Shown: one piece after another, positions 6,278-23,126 of the stretch
How positions within the stretch are numbered: the stretch's first letter is position 1
Layout: the number at the start of each line of letters is the position of its first letter
From: Owenia fusiformis
Taxonomy: Eukaryota; Annelida; Polychaeta; Sabellida; Oweniidae
DNA length: 64,000 bases
Direction of reading: 5' to 3'
Assembly: GCA_903813345.2 (NCBI GenBank)
Contig: CAIIXF020000007.1
Location: 9,553,730-9,617,729, forward strand
The notes under the pieces: generated by a model
Told to the model about the DNA's origin: nothing
The model's database searches: none
Seen by the model: the letters and a program-made list of their open reading frames with translations, nothing else
Translations under genes and position numbers: made by a program

Positions 6278-6374
6278 CATCGATCTCCATGCTAATGGTG
6301 GTCCATTGGGTGAGGTAGTGTATCATGTCATCCTTTGAAAGACGCGTGGCATTCAATCCTCTAGTAAAGCAGGC
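6278..6374 (-). CDS. LETMD1: LETMD1-like exon, end of LETM1 domain
   Basis: 97 nt. The acceptor is tttgattgcag and the donor GATG|GTAAGA. It enters in phase 0 and leaves with one base. It encodes ACFTRGLNATRLSKDDMIHY, then LTQWTTISMEID. The vertebrate counterpart is [21 protein letters not shown] followed by GEWLQIS. A short C-terminal exon should follow; I could not identify it between 1 and 6277. The preceding intron is about 4.2 kb. Confidence 0.9.
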
Positions 6375-9300
6375 CTGCAATCAAATCGCAACAGTAATTT
6401 AATCTATAAATGGATGGTATTCAATCAAAGCTCAATATATATGGAAATGCATAGAATACAAATTATTCCTTGAAAATATGATTGATAGTTAAGTCAAACT
6501 TCATTATAGACATGCCAGTAATTTAGTATGACACATCCAAGTAATAAGTGAAAGACGATAATGTGTACTCAAGCACATCTGAAGTATAATCTTGTGATAT
6601 CGTAACAAGTAATATAAAATTCAAGATGTCATTATATGTATAAGTAAGAATTACTGTTGAATGAATAAATAACCTAAAAAATGTATGTATCTAATAGATC
6701 ACAAGATTTTGCATAAAGAAGCATCTCTTAACATTGTAGAAATAACTGGTCATATCTGACAAGGAGGATTGGCTCCCAGAGTGCAACATCGATATTCTGT
6801 CCCATATATGGGCATGTCGTGCTACAAAATTTGAATTCCAACGACCGCCATTTTGTTCACTTCAACATTTGAATTGTGAATTTTGGTCTTATTTCCTAAC
6901 GAAAAATTCCAAAACTCACAAGAAATGATCGAGATATTGGTTAGAATATTTTGAACTGTTTATTTTGAATTTATAATCGGTTTTAATTTCAGAAAATAAC
7001 GACATTTCGGCGTTTTCATTGTTGGAAAATATCGACTTCGATTCTGGGAGCCAATCCTCCTTGCATATCTGAGAAACGATTTCAAATGCCAATAAATATT
7101 GTCATCATTCACTTGGAAACCATATGGAGCTATATCACATTATGACATCACAATATCAATCATCAGACATCACACAGACACTACAAGAGTCACACACAAA
7201 CACACAATTGCTATGACATTTCAAAGTCTTTGAAATCCAGTCACATAGTATTCAGTTTCATTATGACATCACAATTAAAACCCTGATTTACAAAATGACA
7301 TCATTGCTCTGATCACCATGGCAATAAAGAATAATGAATGAAACTGCACAAAAAAAGTAATAACAGCAGATTGATGTATTGCTCCCTATTTTTATCAGGA
7401 CAACTCTAGTAAACAAGGTAAGAAGTATAAGGTGGTTAAATAACCTCAAGAATTTTTACATGTTTCCAAACAGTCCACCAAGGCACCAACCTCTGCTAAT
7501 GAGGATGTAGGAGATGGGAAGAATTCTCTATTGGGGATAATTTCAGCAAAGTTGAGTCCTTTGAGTAAGTCCCATGAACAACATTAATAAAGGGAAACTT
7601 AAGCTTAACCCCTGGCAACAGCTTAACCCCTGGCAACAGCTTAACATCATCTACTCTTTATTAGAGATACAGTAATTCATTGATTTAGGACCATGAGGCT
7701 ATTAAAGCTACATTTGAGATTATTAAGATTCAATTAGCATTAAACCTGTTACAACATCTGTTAAAGTGAGAGGGTGATGTGACTAACTTCTGGGATGCAG
7801 GGTATTAACCTTTAAAGGATAGGTTTCGATATGGTGAACTGAATTCAACAAAGTTTTTCTCTAAAACCAATTATTGAAAACATTCTGTAAAAAACAGGGT
7901 CCTTTATGTAATGTTGACTGATGCAAAAATCATTTATATATATTTTATATAACTGTTTTTGTTAATATTTTTTGTTTTTTAGTGCAATTGTTTTTTGTTC
8001 CTTTCTACCAATTCTTGAGAATGAAATAAAACGTCTTTCTGAACCTTGTTGGAACAAAATAGCATATACAACATTTTCTTAGACCTCTCAATATTATATA
8101 GTTATACAAAGGAAATTTTGGTTGATTTAACAAAAAGTATGCAAGAACAAAACAAAACCCCCCACAATATATAAAAATTAAGATAAATCTTTTAATTTAA
8201 TAAGATACTTTTTTAAAATCAACCAAACTTTCCTTTGTACAATTACAATATTAAGTTGTGTTTATGTCATTTTGTTCCAATGAGGTTCGGATATATGTTT
8301 CATTTCATTCCGAACATATGATACCAAGAAAGAAAGAAGTGTCTGATGCGTTTTCTAAAACAATATAAAGAAAGGTATACTGTATGTATATAATTCAAAT
8401 TATAATGTTACCATCCAAAAGATGACCATTGAATTGACGATGTGTAGAATTTTCAAAATGTTTTGATGACTGGTTTAAGAGAAACGCGTGTTCAAAAAGT
8501 TCACCATTTCGATACCACTCCTTTACATTAAATTCAGCATGGCATCGGGCATAGCAGAACACAATGAGGCCAGAAGGAGGGAGAAAGTCTATCTACGTAA
8601 AGCACATTTAGAACGAGCATTCATAAAAGGAGAGAATTTGATACTTGGTGAAAGACATGATGACCCATCAAGTGCTCAGAAAGCTACAATAAGCTGTCCA
8701 CCAAAAGCAAAACCTCAGTCCAACCCATGTTCATGTGAAGGTGCTCCAGATGTTAAGGTAGTCGGAATGCCTCCATTTGGGACATCAGAGAAATGCAGTT
8801 GTTCCCCATCTGAACCAATCAACATAGCAGAATACATCATTGTACCACCATATGCCCAACATGAGGTTCAGGAGAATTTGCCAAAGAGGAAGTCACACGA
8901 TGAATGGATCTGTGATCAGATGTACTCAGCCAAGATGAACAATCGGTACAGCTCAACGGACTATGCCAGTCAATGGTAGCACAGATATGAGAACAATCAC
9001 AACAATTTATGTACTAATATTACGCATTCACTGCAATTACTGCATTACATAGTAAATAGTAATATGTCATGTTATCAAATGAGCAATTTGTTTATCAATC
9101 AAATTCAAAAGCAAATGTTATATGTTTGATCCTCCAGTATCATGTAGCAATATTATTCATACAATAAAATCCTCTATTATCACCACATTCAAAACTGTAC
9201 ATTGAATACTAAATGGGTGGATATGGAGATAGATTTCATACCTCATGATAATTATTTAATGACTCTGTATTCAGAATTTCAGAGGCTTATTTCAGAAGTA

Positions 9301-12300
9301 CAACATTTGTCTCTAAAACTACAATTACTGAATGTACTCACAGGTTAAAATGATAATTTACTTAGTATAGGCCAGTTTTTGGCAAAATGTTAATTAATGT
9401 TCATTCTGTCAATAGAGGCCTTTCCATATAGCTTTGAAATCTCGTTAAAGTCTCGTTTTTAATGAGATTTTAGGAGATCTGCATTTTTAACCACCAAAGA
9501 CTAACATTTTCTTCTATTTGATGGCATATCTGAATTCTGTGTGTAATTTTCTATCAAAACAAATTTGATTTGCACTGTTATTTACCTTAATTCAAATTCT
9601 AGAGATTTTCAAGCTCTCTAAAAATGATCTGGGTAAATCCCCATTGATGCAATGTTGAAAAACCTTATACGGTTCATTTACTTTTATAAGGATCACAATT
9701 TTAATGTGAAATCACAATCCACATGTCAATAATATCATATAGTTCATTCCAATGGTGTTTTAAGTTGATCCAAATGGAATTACTTGTTAAATCAAGAAAT
9801 TAAGTGACTCTTGCTATTAAGTTGCCATGTTATTTAGCCCTAACAATACCCATGATGCCATCTATTTTTCTATTTATATGGAAAAGGATCAATTGAGCTT
9901 TTGCGATCAGAATTCAGGAATTCCGTTTATGGATACAGTTGTCATGTATTTCGTCTTATTGGTGTGACGTCATACAGAAATGATATTAGACATGATGGAG
10001 AGATGAAATGGTGGACACGTGGCAGTTTTGAGGTAAAAATTTTATTATTTCTTTTTTGAAAACCATGGGTCCATTATTTACCAGGTATGCCGATTTGACT
10101 AGATCATGAGTATATCTCTATATGTGTGAAGTTTCGGTGAAATTCATACTAAACGTCGATGCCTTTTTTTCAAAATCGGGGGCGCTTAACCGTTATCTAA
10201 ATCATGTCGAAAGATCTTAGACTTGGCATGTGCTTAGAATGAATGTTGATCTAGTCAAATCGAACACTTTTGTGAAAAATAAATCAATAAAGTACGAAAT
10301 ACAGAAGATAATCTCTCAAAATCAGAAAGCTATAGCAGTGTGGCCTAATTGTGACGTCACTACAAGATAGAATTCATCCAGTGATCGCAAATCATCAATT
10401 AAAGGATATGACGTTAATTGACATATGATATGTCATATAAAAAGATATGACTGACCTAATCATATCAACAGTAATATGTATATAATTTGTATATCTTGAA
10501 GAATATGACATAAACTGAAATATGATACAACATCATGAGACCTAATGATATCAACTGTTATATGTACAGTATATCGACTTACACTACGTAACTCTTCTTC
10601 TGTCAATTTGTCGATCCCTTCTCTCTGCATTGCACGATCAATGTAGTTTATAAGCACCGCATCTTGTAGTAGTTTCTGCCTGAGAAGACTATGAAGAAGC
10701 ATACCTTTGGCTAGATGTCTCTGGAAAACAAGGTTTTATTGCCTTTAATTCATATAAGTTCAGATCACACATGATGGATAGATATGGTTTTAATTATAAA
10801 ATCATGAATTTATAATTAAAACCAATGAGCTCATACACATAATGCAGAACTTCCATCAGTAGCAATTTTCTCCAGTTGCTAAACTGAAATCATTTGTTGC
10901 TTTGAGAAACTTTGCAACTAAACTGTTTCAATGCTAAAATTATAATTTCAAATAACTTTCCTAATTGTTTTCATTTATACATGCCTGTTTGAGAAATTAT
11001 GATGAATTCATTCACTATGGAAGGTCTACATGTATATATGTGTATTACATACCTAGCGAAGCATTTGTATGGAAGTCAATGGAACTGAAGGTCGGCTATA
11101 TATTCCTGCATAGCCGCCAAACTTTTTTACCATGATGACTTTATGACGTCATAACATGTAAACAAAGTAATTTCGACTGGAATCATGTAAAATTTTGGTC
11201 TTTTTTCACGCATTTCTACATATTATCTTGATGAAATGTTATGTAAATGTACTTTAGGTATGTAATACAACAATTATGTCTGTATCATTGAATATATGCC
11301 TTCGGTCCGTCGTCAATATAACCTTCGCAAGCTTGGGCAATATTGCTGACAGACCTCAGGCATATATTCAATGATAGGGACATAACTGCTAGATATGACT
11401 TACCTTTTTTAATACCACATACAGGGTGTCCCAAAAAAAAGGAAACCAGCAATAGATTGCTTATTCCTCAAATATGAATAATGATAGGAAAATTTCACAG
11501 CTACCATCTGATAGATTATGATGTCCTCTTTCTTATGATACCAAAGTTGTCTATTTCCCTTCACGGATGACTGAGTTATAAGGGATTTAAGTGACCATGT
11601 CAGAAATGAGTTTGTACCACTTTCAGCCAAGTCAATTTCACCATCATAACAAAGTGATAAGTAACAACAAACATCAGGATATCACTCTTATACTCATTTA
11701 TTCCAATTAAAATTACACATATCATATTTAACACCCCTTTTAAATCCCAATGTCAATTCAAAGCTGTTTTAACCCCAGTGTCATCATAAGGGATGCAGTA
11801 CGTGCGATGAGATCAAGGGCAGACATTTGCATTGAAAGGAATGGGGGTCATGTTGAAGGACACTGGGGTTAAAACAACTTTGAATGGACATTGGGATTTA
11901 AAAGGGGTGTTAAATATGATATGTGTAATTTTAATTGGAATAAATGAGTAAAAGAGTGATATCCTGATGTTTGTTGTTACTTATCACTTTGTTATGATGG
12001 TGAAATTGACTTGGCTGAAAGTGGTACAAACTCATTTCTGACATGGTCACTTAAATCCCTTATAACTCAGTCATCCGTGAAGGGAAATAGACAACTTTGG
12101 TATCATAAGAAAGAGGACATCATACCCTATCAGATGGTAGCTGTGAAATTTTCCTATTATTATTCATATTTGAGAAATAAGCAATCTATTGCTGGTTTCC
12201 TTTTTTTTGGGACACACTGTATAACAAGATATATGACTTACCATGTTAGGTCTAGATATATATATGACTTACCATGTAAGGTCTACATATAAGAGTTACC

Positions 12301-15300
12301 ATGTAAGGTCTAGATATATGACTTACCATGTAAGGTCTAGATATATGACTTACCATGTAAGGTCGGGATATATGACTAAGTTCTAATGGTTTCTCTTGAA
12401 ATAAATGACTGGCAGCTAGGATTTCATCAACACTTGGATGACTTTTGGCTTTGATCTGTAATCAAATAATGCACATCAAAGATATGATAGATTTAAAATT
12501 CCAATGTAAGACATCTATACATGTAAAAACTTAAAAGATGGCAACCCACTTAAAATACACACTGAATTTTTAAACAAGACATTTACATGCAAAATGTCAC
12601 AACCTGCCATTTGTTACAGACACCTCCAGCAACGCAAAATGCCGACTGCCAAACACCATCCACCGAAAAGTTGGAGACATTAACAATATGTCACCACTTG
12701 ATAAATAAATCTTGACCATATCAAAACATTTTTCCCATGTTTTACTAAATATGAATAGTATGAAAATGGTATTAGCTTCCATATCAAGAGAGAAATGGCC
12801 TAGCAAGGAATATACCTTTAATGACTTATTCATCTACCCAGCCCTTGATAACACAATACTGATAATAAAAACTTTGCCTGGTTCATATTGGATACATTTC
12901 CCGAAAAATATTCATGACTTAAGAAGCAATGGTCTTTTTCCTGGTCTAAATCAACTAAATGAACCTGGTCAAAAGTACAGTAAAACCTGTCTAAGTTGAA
13001 CACCTTTCGGTACCTCTAAAAAGTGTTCCACTTGTGAGGTGTTCAACTTGCAGAGGTTCATTTAACATTAAGTCATTTGGTCTTGTGACTCTGAAGTGTT
13101 CCGTTTACAAAGGTGTTCCACTTCTAGAGGTGTTCCACTCCACATGTTTCACTGTATTCATTACAACGTCAGATACATTATAACACTGAAATTACCCTTT
13201 GTAGTATCTTCTCTAGTTTTTCTCTACTGTCTGTGTCCTTTATCTTCTTGACTTTAGCAGCTAGACCTTTTATAATTGGTTTGTGTTGTGCAACTCTCTG
13301 ACTATGGTAATGTAAGGCGAAGTCTTTCTTTTGCTCTGTAGACCAGAAATGGTACGATAAAAACTGACGAGGGAAGAAATACCTAAAAGCAAAATTTATA
13401 TTTTAGCATAAAGCAAATTGTGTGTATACTTAAGTGATAATTATCTTTAATTCAGTATCGTTTTCTTTCAAAAAATAGCAGGATGTTTAGTATGTATATG
13501 ATAAACTTTGTGCAACTGATTATCAAGGACAACTTATTTGAAATGAAAATTGAAGTTGGTTATGAAGCAGTAAAAGGAAGTGCTAAACCCTAATAAACCT
13601 TAGTGCTACTTTTGTAGACTATTCCATTGGAAACATCGTGAAAATGGAACATTGAAGGTATGTATAAAGCTTGCAGTATAGAAAGAGGAACTTACGCTAC
13701 TGGAAAGACTATATAATTGGCGAATGGGAGAGCAGATATGGCCAGCACTGGACCAACTGTCCATAGACACTCAGGCATCTATCAAAGAAGCAAGAAATAC
13801 CATATAATTTATTGCTTGACATATGAGGCCCACTGCCAGTGCGTTTTGATTTGTGCAGAACCATTAAAGTACATCCCATTTGCATGTGATGTGTTTACAA
13901 TTGATGAAAAAGCATGGATATAGAATAAGGCTTTAATCCATCGATTCATTTTAATCTACATGTATATATACAAATTTATCATAATCAAGGCCAACATATA
14001 GCAGTTCCACAGCGTAAAAATCTAGGATTCTTAAATAAAATATGTAGCCAAGCAATAGCCAGAGCTTGAAATTAGCCAGAGCTTGGGAAAAGCCAGATTT
14101 TAGGAACAGCCAAGGCAGGGGAATAGCCAGAGCAGGGGGACAGCCAGAGCTTGGGAACAGCCAGAGCTTGGGAACAGCCAGAGCTTGGGAATAGCCAAAG
14201 TTGATCTGTGAACCTTATAGGTAATTTAAGTAAGACAGTGCAACCTCATCCTTCCAAGATATATTATATAAATCCCAGTCCCATTTTACCACCAAGCTTG
14301 AAGCTCCATACATGGTGTCCCAAAAAATTGTACCCAAATGAAATTTGAATAACCCTTTTTTCCTTTATCAAGAAAAACTGAACTGATAAAGAGAATTCAT
14401 TTTACAATAGACGTTTCCCATAAAATATGCCACCTATGCAATCTGTCCATGCAAATATAAGATAAACTTATTGCTTTATCACAATTAATGCAGAGCTCAA
14501 TGTAAATCAAAACATGGGAAATAGGTGAGGGTACTAAAACGAGTTTTTCTCTTAAAATTGAGAAGAATTACCTTGTTGAACTTTTAGAAGTATTTTTATA
14601 TGAAAATTAAATTTCCTGTCAGATAACAAATTTCAAGAATATTCCTTTATCACTCACAAAGTTATATTATGTTTGTCTCTGGACAATCTTTTGGTACACC
14701 CTGGATATAAACATCCATTTTTGAACAATTTTTGTGGGAATTTTTAAAGTTGCATTGATATACTCACACCAGTGGAAATACAGCAACATCAAGTATTGGA
14801 ATATTGAGGAACACCAGAATGGGGATGACACCAAACATAGAAGATGGCAACTAAAGTTATAACAAGACAATTGGTTTAAATAAACAGTTTGTGTCAAAAA
14901 TGCAGAGGGGGACTTTTGAATATTATTAGACTGTCTAAACATATGAAATATAAGGAGATAGTGGTGCATTCCAATGTAAATAGCAAAATGCCACTGACTT
15001 GTGGAATCTATCCCAGATGTTTGTTTAAGAATGTGTTTTTAAAAAATTAGTAGGCATGATTTTTCATGTGTTGTTAAGTTCTTTTCTCTTATTTTTGTGA
15101 ATGTGACTCAATCTTAGTTGCATCTTTACACTTTTTACTTGAGTAATATTTTGTAAAGTTGCACCACTAGAACTAAATTATAAAATTCAAGGGCATCAAT
15201 ACCCCAAATATGGAAAGAATCTTGACTTTAATATGGAAAATATAAATGTACAATGTATCCATACTTTTTCACCATATTTAATGGTTTTACTAAGACCAGA

Positions 15301-16448
15301 ATAAGTATTTGTTTTCGATGGTCACTATGGTTTCAAAATTTGACCCCATACAAGGGAATTTTTTGTAAAATTTGGATGATATATATTTTGATCCTACATC
15401 AAAAATTTGTGTTTAATTAAGGTAATGTTTAGTGACCCAATTTGTTTTCATCTTTTCAAAATTTATAAGGCATTTAACTATTATAATATGACCATTTAAT
15501 AATTAGTGTTTCTTGTAAAAAATATGTTAAATTGAATTACAAAGAATGAATTTTTTCTAAATATTAATTTATAATTTCTATGTTTTATGTGTCTTATTGA
15601 CTATTAAATTCTACCTCTCTGTATATCTCTAGCTGTTTTCTTGAGAAAGTAGAGAGTTCCTGGCCACCCCATATTTGTTTTGTGACAGAGAAATATGTCC
15701 TTGTATCAGCTATGAATTCACTCGTTCCTACAAAATAAAAGGGACTATAAGCATTTTTGCATAACATTGGTGATTGACATTTTTAATTTAAGCCAGTTTC
15801 ATCCCTATCATAGTATTACCATTAGTCTTGCTTCAAGACTGTTAAACCCACCCTCTATTTACACCGTCTTCACTAACACAACATAGGTGCAGTAGATAAG
15901 GGGGAGGGGGTCCATGGTCTTAAGCATGATTTCATTACCATATTTACCCTAAATCTATAATTAATTAACATGCATGTTATCAACACTGATTGCAATTTAT
16001 CATAGACCTTAAAGTAACACAAAATATGCTATATTTTAGAATGTGCTAACTATTATAATATTGAACAGATGAATCAATTGACTAAAATAACTTTCATATT
16101 AAACCAAATAAAAAAACTGTCAAGTGAAACACTTCTCTAAATGAAACACTCATAAGTACACTACTCATTGATTTAAGGCAAATAAAATGCATTCCAATAT
16201 AGTACAGGTTTATGTAAAATGTTCTGACTGAATTTTACAAGAATTACAGGTATTTCATCAGGTACTTGAGATTTATACATTGTCACTCACCTGCTTTAAA
16301 TACTTTATAAACTTTAAACACTTTGGGGTATTTAATTTCTAAATGTCTTTCAACCCATTGTAAACTCTTCAAGTAGACGTCATAAATTTTCCTCTTGACT
16401 TTGCCAGGCTGGGGTGGCTGTACATGAGGTCCTTCAGTGCTGTATATT
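6278..16448 (-). CDS. LETMD1: LETMD1-like gene, LETM1-domain mitochondrial protein (partial)
   Basis: Seven constant or alternative-pair coding positions assemble into one frame on the minus strand, with GT/AG junctions and matching phases throughout. The order is 16448-16291, 15727-15615, then one of 14850-14768 or 13778-13696, then 13382-13196, 12455-12354, 10720-10583 and 6374-6278. The product matches vertebrate LETMD1 along its length: PKVFKVYKVFKA, a membrane helix with LPFANYIVF (vertebrate PPFANYLVF), YFFPRQFLSYHFWS (vertebrate YLFPRQLLIRHFW), HPSVDEILA, RHLAKGMLLHSLL, IDRAMQREGIDKLTEEEL and ACFTRGLNATRLS. LETM1-domain proteins sit in the mitochondrial inner membrane with the domain facing the matrix. 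The first exon (mitochondrial presequence) and the last exon (short C-terminus) were not found. The 5' part must lie beyond 16448, across or within the repeat array. Orthology is inferred by eye. Confidence 0.88.
6760..7063. mobile_element. 304-bp MITE with 9-bp target duplication
   Basis: It is bounded by perfect inverted repeats (CAAGGAGGATTGGCTCCCAG at the left; its complement at the right, at least 21 bp) and flanked on both sides by the exact 9-mer CATATCTGA (6751-6759 and 7064-7072). A 9-bp duplication is usual for Mutator-like elements. No coding capacity. It lies in the 3' intron of the LETMD1-like gene. Confidence 0.88.
7073..8538. other. Intron sequence without recognised features
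   Basis: AT-rich intron of the LETMD1-like gene. Two copies of 'gcttaacccctggcaaca' lie in tandem at about 7610-7640. The flanks of 7950-8330 show loose inverted similarity (aggaaattttggttgattt near 8110 and aaatcaaccaaactttcctt near 8216). I see no gene. Confidence 0.6.
8539..8979 (+). CDS. Small antisense ORF nested in the LETMD1-like intron
   Basis: 146 codons from ATG 8539 to TAG 8977-8979. An in-frame ATG at 8488 would add 17 residues. I prefer 8539 because 'ttacattaaattcag' just before it looks like a splice acceptor and the upstream extension is hydrophobic and low quality. The product is soluble-looking, with no membrane segment. It has a charged N-terminus (ARRREKVYLRKAHLERAFIK) and cysteine pairs (ISCPPK, NPCSCEG, EKCSCSPSE). 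Codon composition is mixed and unlike the surrounding AT-rich DNA. A polyadenylation signal AATAAA lies at 9163-9168. I do not recognise the family. It may be the last exon of a small gene nested on the opposite strand. Confidence 0.55.
   Translation: MASGIAEHNEARRREKVYLRKAHLERAFIKGENLILGERHDDPSSAQKATISCPPKAKPQSNPCSCEGAPDVKVVGMPPFGTSEKCSCSPSEPINIAEYIIVPPYAQHEVQENLPKRKSHDEWICDQMYSAKMNNRYSSTDYASQW
8980..10582. other. Intron sequence, no gene seen
   Basis: AT-rich intron of the LETMD1-like gene. Near 10430-10580 'catatgatatgtcatat' and 'taatgatatcaactgttatatgta' recur as loose tandem copies. No exon or element boundary was found. Confidence 0.5.
9163..9168 (+). terminator. Polyadenylation signal AATAAA
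   Basis: A canonical hexamer 184 bases after the stop of the 8539-8979 ORF, in the right orientation to end its transcript. Confidence 0.45.
10583..10720 (-). CDS. LETMD1: LETMD1-like exon, LETM1 ribosome-binding-like domain
   Basis: 138 nt, 46 codons, phase 0 at both ends. The acceptor is ttgttttccag and the donor AGT|GTAAGT. It encodes RHLAKGMLLHSLLRQKLLQD, then AVLINYIDRAMQREGIDKLT and EEELRS. It aligns with the vertebrate block AMLLTSYLPPPLLRHRL through LGIGQLTAQEVKSA. The pattern 'GI..LT..EL' is typical of LETM1 domains. Confidence 0.9.
11040..11390. repeat. Nested short inverted repeats (MITE-like)
   Basis: GTATTACATACCTA near 11043 pairs with TAGGTATGTAATAC at about 11256-11271. Directly after it, TATCATTGAATATATGCCT (about 11283) pairs with its complement near 11357-11376. 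They are probably two hairpin-forming non-autonomous elements. No target duplication is assigned. Confidence 0.6.
11422..12219. mobile_element. 798-bp palindromic element with TA duplication
   Basis: The ends are CAGGGTGTCCCAAAAAAAAG and the complement of CAGTGTGTCCCAAAAAAAAG, each next to TA (11420-11421 and 12220-12221). The arms are about 350 bp and nearly identical, with a centre of roughly 80 bp near 11780-11857. TA duplication suggests Tc1/mariner-type mobility. Both arms contain the same open frame of about 70 codons without an ATG, which I regard as chance. It lies in an intron of the LETMD1-like gene. Confidence 0.85.
12226..12380 (-). repeat. 27-bp tandem repeat made of exon end plus splice donor
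   Basis: Five copies on the minus strand of a unit containing TCATATATC-T-AGACC-TTACATG|GTAAGT. Donor positions (last exon base) are 12354, 12327, 12300, 12273 and 12242. Spacings are 27, 27, 27 and 31 bp. The third copy has a changed donor (GTAACT) and the fourth interval has 4 extra bases. The first copy is the real end of the LETMD1-like exon, so the repeat arose by duplicating coding sequence plus its donor. The far end abuts the foldback element at 11422-12219. Confidence 0.9.
12354..12455 (-). CDS. LETMD1: LETMD1-like exon ending in a repeated donor
   Basis: 102 nt with phase 0 at both ends. The acceptor is tgattacag. It encodes IKAKSHPSVDEILAASHLFQ, then EKPLELSHISRPYM. The donor ATG|GTAAGT at 12354 is the first of five copies of the same exon-end sequence (next entry). 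If later donors are used, VSHISRPYM is added once or twice, then a variant VTLICRPYM. Confidence 0.85.
12976..13156. mobile_element. ACAGTAAAACCTGT-type MITE, copy 1
   Basis: It begins TACAGTAAAACCTGTCTAAG and ends catgtttcactgta. The body is made of repeated words such as 'gtgttccactt' and 'gaacacct'. Related copies lie at about 54862, 56597, 57281, 60714 and 61459. It lies in an intron of the LETMD1-like gene. Confidence 0.75.
13196..13382 (-). CDS. LETMD1: LETMD1-like exon after the membrane helix
   Basis: 187 nt. The acceptor is gcttttag and the donor AGG|GTAATT. It encodes YFFPRQFLSYHFWSTEQKKD, then a basic region including KGLAAKVKKIKDTDSREKLE and ending KILQR. The first 14 residues are the most recognisable LETMD1 signature in the gene. 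Confidence 0.9.
13696..13778 (-). CDS. LETMD1: LETMD1-like alternative helix exon A
   Basis: 83 nt, phase 0 in and phase 2 out, the same as exon B. The acceptor is a pyrimidine tract followed by gatag, and the donor is AGC|GTAAGT. It encodes MPECLWTVGPVLAISALPFA followed by NYIVFPVA. The 'LPFANYIVF' core matches vertebrate LETMD1, so this looks like the canonical exon. The bases GC join the next exon's G to give Ala before YFFPRQ. Confidence 0.85.
14040..14205. repeat. 17-bp minisatellite (AGCCAGAGCTTGGGAAT)
   Basis: About nine imperfect copies of 'agccagagcttgggaac', more uniform toward the right end. It lies in the intron between alternative exons A and B of the LETMD1-like gene, where a variable repeat could affect their spacing. 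Confidence 0.85.
14311..14703. mobile_element. CAKGGTGTMCC-ended short element
   Basis: The left end catggtgtcccaaaaaatt and the right end (complement cagggtgtaccaaaagatt) match the ends of the element at 11422-12219. The left side is preceded by TA and the right side is not clean. It is a non-autonomous relative of that family, located between alternative exons A and B. Confidence 0.65.
14768..14850 (-). CDS. LETMD1: LETMD1-like alternative helix exon B
   Basis: 83 nt, phase 0 in and phase 2 out. The acceptor is ataactttag and the donor GGT|GTGAGT. It encodes LPSSMFGVIPILVFLNIPIL followed by DVAVFPLV, a hydrophobic helix with the spacing of prolines seen in LETM1-family membrane segments. 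It aligns without gaps to exon A (P2, V8, P10, L12, P18 and V-F-P at 24-26 shared). Joining it to the next exon gives FPLV-YFFPRQ. Using both B and A would add 166 nt and break the frame, so the two should be mutually exclusive. Confidence 0.75.
15615..15727 (-). CDS. LETMD1: LETMD1-like exon before the membrane helix
   Basis: 113 nt. The acceptor is ttttgtag and the donor gtagaa (weaker). It enters with two bases completing Gly and leaves in phase 0 after Glu. It encodes TSEFIADTRTYFSVTKQIWG, then a segment ending RKQLEIYRE, matching the vertebrate stretch that ends LPYREMEHLRQF. Phase 0 at the donor fits both alternative downstream exons. Confidence 0.85.
16291..16448 (-). CDS. LETMD1: LETMD1-like exon, N-terminal part
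   Basis: 158 nt. The acceptor is tttcag at the high-coordinate end and the donor is CAG|GTGAGT. The exon enters completing a codon with one base (A) and leaves with one base. It encodes IYSTEGPHVQPPQPGK, then KRKIYDVYLKSLQWVERHLE, then a lysine-rich KVFKVYKVFKA. 'IYST' at the start is typical of the region just after a mitochondrial presequence, so a short upstream exon with the start codon is expected. Confidence 0.85.
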
Positions 16449-20843: not shown

Positions 20844-23126
20844 TAAACATTGAATAAAACAAAATTTGAAGAAAAAAAACTACTTCAAGACTGAATTATT
20901 TTTCATAAATATGATAGAAATATTGAATGATGTGGAGTTGGATATCTGTATATATTTCTGAGGGTGTATCCAACGATGCCCACAGAGGTTACAATATTCA
21001 TTTTTCGTGTTATCTTTTTTAAGTCTTTCCGATGTGAAATCAAAGAATTGGACTAAATGAAAATGAATTAAAGAAAACATAATTATTTTTCTGAGTTGAG
21101 ACGGAATACCGCCATTATTTTTAGTCACATACTACCTGATTGATCAATGAGAAAGTGAGTGTCGCGGCGTGGAAATAATAATATAATTCATTTCACTGGT
21201 GAAAGAAATTTTAAGCAAAATAATTATTTTCAAATAAATGAAGCTAAAATACAACCCCAAACAAAATATGTTAGCAGCAGCCTATTGTTGGTGGCCAAAG
21301 GCTGTTATATAAGACCAAAAAACGAATCCGTTTGAGATTTGCATACTAAGAATCATCACTGAAAATTTGAAATTGATCGCTCCAATGGTGTGGCTGAAAA
21401 CGCATAGACAAGAATTTACAGACAAGATTTGAAAATGGAAAAATCCGAAGTGGCTGCCTAATCTCCAAGGCCCCTAGAATGAGACCTCTCACCATTTGAC
21501 AGATTGCATGACTCTATAATATACAAAATTTGGTGAGGGTCCTAGCTGAGCCCTCAGATATCAATATGTTCCCATACAAATCTGTCAAATTTCAATGTGT
21601 CACCATACCGACCAATTAAATTGATCATTGCCATACCTCAAGTCATAATTTGGGGGGCATTCTCTTACCACATACTAAAATTTGGGTCCATTGCCATACC
21701 AAATATCATAAAAGATACCCCACCACGCGGTAGAGATTTCAACCACAATCCTTGATATGTCGCCAGTTCTTCTATCACTCTCCGCCATATTCTGCGCAAG
21801 GACTCCCATTACAACCCTCCATCGCTGCATCAACATATTTATCACATTAAACGCAGCAATTTCCAAAAGTCCTACACATCTGTTCGAAATTGATCAAAAC
21901 GCCCGTTCTCTTCCAAAACGCCCTGTTGGATCTATACACCTTATCAGTAGTCATAGACTCTGCGCAGTGGGCGTTTTGGAAGACAACAGGGCATTTTGGT
22001 CAATTTCGAACAGTTGCGTAGGACTTCTCAATTGCTGCGTTTATAAATATGTTGATGCAGCGATGGAGGGTTGTAATAAGAAAAACGGCGTAGTGTGAGA
22101 CTCACAATCATTTATTTTCTAAAGACAGGGTAGATTTGAAATTCAAATTAACGGTTTTGCGGGGCGTTTTGGTTTCAATACGCCCCGGTGAGTTAGTACC
22201 GCATGCCCATGTGAGCCGAGAATCCCCCATTCAAATCCCCATCAAGGACAGTGAAACCACAGGGCATGACGTGATGTTGCGAGACATGGTCTAAGTCACC
22301 ACTACCAAAACTTTGATTTTTTTTCTTTTTCGCATTACAATTTCAGTTTCACAACAAATTGAATAATTCAAAACAATCTGATTCATAATTTAATTTGTTG
22401 AATTTTTTTTTCTGAAAAAAACAAGCAATCTCAACTCAATATCAATGCCTAGCAAATTCCTTGATGGTGAAAGTGATGCACTGCGCTTTAAATCACTCAC
22501 CTGACACAGCTGTAAGTGCAGGAATATGACAGTTTGCTAGTATTTAAGAAAAGTGTTCGATTAATGATACCGGTAGCCATACCGGAAACGAGCGTGTATT
22601 CACTGAAACGTAAACTGACAGCTGATGTGAAACGAATTTGTATATTTTTATTCTTGCTCTAATCTTTTATTACTTGAATAACAATCTTTAATAAGATAAG
22701 ATACAAATGATTAATATTATTGAATATAAAAGTTCTTATCATTTGTACCCCTTTTATAATAATAAGGCATTATTTTCGTTTCAGGTATTCCTCCATACAA
22801 CTCCGAAATAAAGTTTTAAACTCCTCAACTTTTAAACAAAAGTCTATCTTTTCAATCAATAGTATCGCTCCAACATTATAATATGTATTTACGGTACCAT
22901 GATATCAATTTTAACATGTTACCAACAAACAATAGTAATGCATACATCAGGTAGGATACAGTTATTTTGATCTAGACCTAACATGAGTAAGAAAGAGAGT
23001 GGGAGGGGGTACCCCATGTGGGATGGATTTTCTTTTCAGGACAACTCTACTATCTGTTGCAATGCCTATGCTCATGAGTTTATCCATAAACTTTCTTGTG
23101 TATTCTGTGGAACTTGATCGCAATAT
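20844..23126. other. Unassigned AT-rich sequence
   Basis: I found no exon with convincing splice sites or conserved peptide. It contains the foldback hairpin at 21808-22077 listed separately. Open frames near 21757-22098 come from that hairpin. Confidence 0.5.
21808..22077. mobile_element. 270-bp hairpin element
   Basis: The left arm (about 112 bp from attacaaccctccatcgctgc) is repeated in inverted form ending gcagcgatggagggttgtaat. The arms differ at scattered bases and small indels, and the centre is about 45 bp. It is a MITE-like foldback; the target duplication is not clear. Confidence 0.75.

Follow-up and report, generated by a model that had tools for sequence, protein, structure and literature searches.

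A LETMD1-like gene of Owenia fusiformis, read from the minus strand of the 64,000-nt stretch of DNA analysed here (the window), contains two neighbouring 83-nt exons, A and B, that encode homologous versions of the main hydrophobic helix of the protein. Judged from the sequence, the pair very probably arose long ago when one exon was duplicated in tandem, and its members are now spliced in a mutually exclusive manner. This reading had been put forward in a first-pass annotation, and it proved to be the best fit to the frame logic, the homology, the Pfam fit and the codon-position signature.

All exons of the gene that follow are on the minus strand. Exon e2 (16291..16448, 158 nt) is preceded by AG and followed by GT, and the shared upstream exon e3 (15615..15727, 113 nt) ends in the weak donor GAG/GTAGAA. 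Exon A (14768..14850) encodes LPSSMFGVIPILVFLNIPILDVAVFPL plus a split codon and is the LETM1-like version, and exon B (13696..13778) encodes MPECLWTVGPVLAISALPFANYIVFPV plus a split codon and is the PFANY version. The shared downstream exon e5 (13196..13382, 187 nt) begins with YFFPRQFLSYHF and is followed by e6 (12354..12455, 102 nt) and e7 (10583..10720, 138 nt), both within the LETM1_RBD match, and by e8 (6278..6374, 97 nt). The introns between e3 and A, A and B, and B and e5 measure 764, 989, and 313 nt, respectively. Exons e2 to e8 with either A or B form a single open frame, and every exon is flanked by AG and GT. A probable last exon, encoding ...ETNISLLLHKPVLLAYNHPDNKSIRKALQTS, falls beyond the window at about C7:9551915; it was chosen by its likeness to the ends of LETMD1 proteins. 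The first exon is weak and tentative (22501..22580, with the presequence-like start MATGIINRTLF...), its basis being an ATG, the phase and a donor only.

Checked against the sequence, A and B are each exactly 83 nt long at the coordinates first annotated, with phase 0 in and 2 out, GT-AG ends and an open frame. A and B are neighbouring internal exons of similar sequence and length, in the same frame, with GT-AG ends and no in-frame stop, as mutually exclusive exons are characterized in PMC5740500. Joining A to B leads to a stop inside B, and skipping both leads to a stop inside the next exon, e5. In the mechanism that we propose, the exon for the main hydrophobic helix would have been duplicated in tandem long ago, the copies would then have diverged under selection, and each transcript would take either A or B. 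Transcripts with both or neither would shift the frame and meet an early stop, full protein would come from one-exon messages only, and nonsense-mediated decay would presumably remove the rest. The splice choice would swap the LETM1-like helix of A for the PFANY helix of B and leave the rest of the protein identical. We infer from this arrangement that both isoforms would be expressed, exclusively of one another, and that regulation of the choice, decay of the faulty messages and a functional difference between the two proteins would go with it.

The protein had been annotated as a member of the LETM1-domain family, and this was borne out by Pfam. PF07766 (LETM1_RBD) matched at 161.6 bits with B and at 159.0 bits with A, far over the curated cut-off of 25.3, so that the swap from B to A costs the match 2.6 bits. 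Six shuffled versions of A gave 130.2 to 144.1 bits; all six lost 15 to 29 bits, and the matched stretch began 15 to 35 residues later, with the front of the match lost. This indicates that A carries family-specific sequence, beyond mere hydrophobicity. LETM1 itself is a separate gene on contig C5 of the same genome, and the name LETMD1 is provisional, given on this ground together with LETMD1-type features. The gene is a LETMD1-like, nuclear-coded and probably mitochondrial member of the LETM1-domain family. A PF07766 family search of the genome (498 Mb, 525 contigs) gave LETM1 but missed the LETMD1-like gene, indicating that short exons can escape such searches. No relatives were found in the viral or prokaryote contigs scanned, as expected for an animal gene. 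The search of PDB sequences returned one match, yeast Mdm38 (3skq), and the exon A/B region lies outside it.

We compared the two copies by codon position. A and B were identical at 11, 16, and 9 of 27 first, second, and third positions, respectively, and when each was compared with the helix of the animal's own LETM1, the corresponding values were 8, 20, and 6 of 27 for A and 10, 13, and 7 of 27 for B. With third positions near chance and second positions conserved, both copies look selected as protein. Neutral decay of B was simulated in a crude manner until the A-B level of DNA identity was reached, with substitutions taken as uniform and the indel rate assumed; of 20000 runs, 7036 retained the open frame, 528 the splice dinucleotides, and 1 the protein score. 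These results bear on the possibility that A is a decaying or unused copy and that only B is used, which we consider improbable. Decay of one copy is common after exon duplication, and it is B that has the PFANY core of vertebrate LETMD1. However, A has kept its frame, its length, both splice sites and its family-specific sequence. Protein similarity that persists at saturated third positions is unlike decay, which gave it in just the one simulated run, and A matches the animal's own LETM1 at 20 of 27 second codon positions.

The splice sites of the pair had been called strong, which was overstated; scored with a hand-typed donor matrix, the donors of A (2.54) and B (1.66) are moderate. Both nevertheless exceed the 95th percentile (1.14) of the 105 GT dinucleotides in 15614-13383. 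Scores of the other donors were 0.06 for e3, 9.11 for e2, 5.68 for e6, 4.12 for e8, 1.8 for e5, and 2.25 for e7, and the weak donor of e3 may leave room for regulation. The statement that including both exons or neither shifts the frame holds for the main junctions, which give the early stops described above, but not for an alternative donor of A. This donor, CTG/GTGTGA (14764..14772, minus strand), lies 2 nt upstream of A's own, scores 2.47 against 2.54, and shortens A to 81 nt, and 81 + 83 nt would permit A and B together in frame. A and B might then not be strictly exclusive, and a third isoform would contain both helices. We regard such an isoform as quite unlikely in spite of the near-equal scores, because the contiguous GTGAGT is found at A's own donor, use of the alternative would ruin A-only messages, the donor of B has no such twin, and two serial helices would alter the topology if they are membrane-spanning.

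A and B share 37 of 83 bases and, in a gap-free alignment, 8 of 27 residues (BLOSUM62 score, 44). The 8 shared residues and the V-F-P motif noted by the first-pass annotation were recovered, whereas the prolines among them number four in our reading rather than three. On both strands of the window, 350 AG-83-GT spans were counted. In the required phase, 64 of them are open, and apart from B itself none of these comes as close to B as exon A does (44; next best, 8). The two exons are homologous beyond chance, as copies left by tandem exon duplication would be. Although the segment is short (27 residues) and one hydrophobic sequence readily reaches a good score with another (up to 22 in an A-like scan without splice sites), it is most improbable that A or B is a random open hydrophobic stretch rather than an exon, given that none of 2112 open AG-83-GT spans in 8 Mb of Markov intron-like sequence (maximum, 13) and none of 100000 residue shuffles of A reached 44 and that the front of the Pfam match disappears when A is shuffled with its hydrophobic composition unchanged. 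A third copy of the helix exon was not found in 22500-6300 by that A-like scan, for which 22 was the upper limit of the background. A spliced retrocopy attesting either junction was likewise not found when e2-e3-B-e5 DNA was searched against the genome, the four matches among the best candidates scored all being the gene's own exons. With the exon A peptide, the gene's own locus alone rose above noise in the genome, and four more matches had E values of 0.71 to 2.18.

One copy had been described as more LETM1-like, and this holds for A. Aligned without gaps to the helix of the animal's own LETM1, A scored 36 (reached by 19 of 100000 shuffles of A) and B scored 10 (1245 of 100000 shuffles). The hydropathy maxima were 2.26 for A, 1.68 for B, and 2.36 for LETM1. 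The closer match of A to LETM1, together with the PFANY core that B has in common with vertebrate LETMD1, points to B as the standard LETMD1 version and to A as one that has kept or regained a LETM1-like helix. Ion transport by LETM1 itself is debated. Two conserved acids of mouse LETM1, D204 and E221, are located beside or within the helix, and the Ca2+ effect in cells is abolished by the E221Q mutation, although this mutant was not producible for the liposome test, according to PMC5037442. In LETM1 of the present genome, an Asp and a Glu are likewise 17 residues apart by hand count, indicating that its PFME holds the Glu221 equivalent. At that place in the gap-free alignment, and by position alone, A has Asp (IPILD) and B has Asn (LPFAN). 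A single aligned acid in a segment with one acid is weak evidence by itself. A speculative and in our view unlikely reading is that the splice choice acts as a charge switch, in which the acid of A would serve ion or proton exchange or its regulation and the uncharged B would have no such role. One gene would then yield exchanger-like and non-exchanging isoforms, perhaps switched by respiratory state as for coq-2.

We know of no agreed biochemical role for LETMD1, and its topology is contested. Natural isoforms that differ in this helix alone, one of them with a LETM1-type acid, would constitute a ready-made experiment on the role of the helix. The designation of the helix as an inner-membrane segment in the first-pass annotation is disputed by work on mouse LETMD1, in which the APEX fusions tested, placed at either end of the protein or at F79, L115, or P148, all reported the matrix (PMC10290150). 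The segment encoded by A or B is therefore better termed a hydrophobic helix.

Mechanisms of mutually exclusive splicing are listed in PMC5740500. Splice-site incompatibility between A and B is not apparent, as both have ordinary GT-AG ends. The A-B intron, at 989 nt, is too long for steric exclusion of joining. Pairing was considered between the introns before A (i1), between A and B (i2), and after B (i3). Complementary intronic motifs, suggested earlier as a feature to look for, were found in the form of a 19-bp stem with two G-U pairs, which joins an arm upstream of A (15256..15274, minus strand) to a partner about 125 nt upstream of B (13902..13920, minus strand); with three intron pairs tried, it is not clearly beyond background. 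Of 400 shuffles, 6 contained a stem as long, and so did 14 of 389 segment pairs taken from the window. It would loop out A, but this is suggestive only. The longest i2-i3 and i1-i3 stems were ordinary (236 and 327 of 400 shuffles, respectively), and whole-intron duplexes of the three pairs were unexceptional, being equalled or exceeded in stability by 43, 22, and 13 of 60 shuffles. A local duplex search gave -26.3 for i1-i2 (0 of 12 shuffles), -20.9 for i1-i3 (6 of 12), and -26.8 for i2-i3 (0 of 12, and 1 of 48 in a larger run). The A-B intron additionally contains a 17-nt minisatellite of 8.3 copies at 14057-14197.

Several other features were observed in the gene. At 12226-12391 (minus strand), a 27-nt unit comprising the end of e6 and its donor occurs in five tandem copies. 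Three extra copies are in frame (ELSHISRPYM VSHISRPYM VSHISRPYM VTLICRPYM), so that use of other donors could lengthen the protein by 9, 18, or 27 residues. The intron after e6 also holds a near-perfect inverted repeat at 11419-12222, with arms of 364 nt that are 98% complementary and a 76-nt loop, which is likely a foldback-type mobile element. In the e7-e8 intron, on the opposite strand, there is an open frame of 146 codons (8539-8979, plus strand; its ATG lies inside a 163-codon GTG frame), which had no Pfam match at E values up to 1.

COQ2 of the same genome served as a positive control. In a similar scan, 71 candidate exons in 6 kb yielded a top same-length pair scoring 24 (next, -4), located at positions 1190-1323 and 4820-4953 of C2:21737400-21743400, with the e-like copy first. 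The two encode TLNWG...YSHQ and TFNWG...YAHQ. Because they carry the Phe/Leu and Ala/Ser differences described in PMC7434440, we assigned them as 6a/6e-like. For the e-like copy, the true donor may lie 3 nt before the one chosen in the scan. The pair suggests that this animal has the capacity for rhodoquinone synthesis, and the groups from which such pairs are reported make it probable that the animal is a lophotrochozoan. Models of COX1, mollusc haemocyanin and haemerythrin had no match in the genome, although the genes may still be present.

Mutually exclusive exon pairs are of a known kind, and as far as our searches go, the LETMD1 case and its possible charge switch are new. No description of mutually exclusive or duplicated exons in LETMD1 or LETM1 was found in the literature searched, which mostly excluded subscription papers, and annotation databases may show both isoforms; a human LETMD1 exon skip is described in PMC9485890. 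The LETM1 helix (Shao et al. 2016, PMC5037442) resembles A in its gap-free alignment, its prolines at equal places and the acid at Glu221, but LETM1 is a separate gene and just 6 of 28 residues are identical to A. SLC25A3, the mitochondrial phosphate carrier, is similar in that exclusive exons swap part of a mitochondrial carrier, but it is human, transcript-supported and of an unrelated family (PMC5740500). The closer parallels are from invertebrates. Tan et al. 2020 (PMC7434440) report mutually exclusive coq-2 exons 6a and 6e from helminths, annelids, and molluscs. These too are homologous exons arranged in tandem inside their gene, which codes for a mitochondrial enzyme, and they comprise one pan-eukaryotic and one variant version that differ at key residues. 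That pair, however, belongs to another protein and is backed by RNA-seq, cross-phyla conservation and exon deletions, whereas the LETMD1 pair is known from sequence alone. The duplicated exon 10 of oyster alternative oxidase also concerns a mitochondrial inner-membrane protein, in a mollusc, and one copy is more diverged and stress-responsive; in contrast to A and B, which would be an internal exclusive pair, its copies are terminal, have their own stops and are chosen through an alternative 3' splice site (PMC5589949). In invertebrates whose oxygen supply is changeable, the exchange of single exons in mitochondrial proteins may form a pattern; coq-2 and oyster alternative oxidase are published members of it, and the LETMD1 pair would be a further case.
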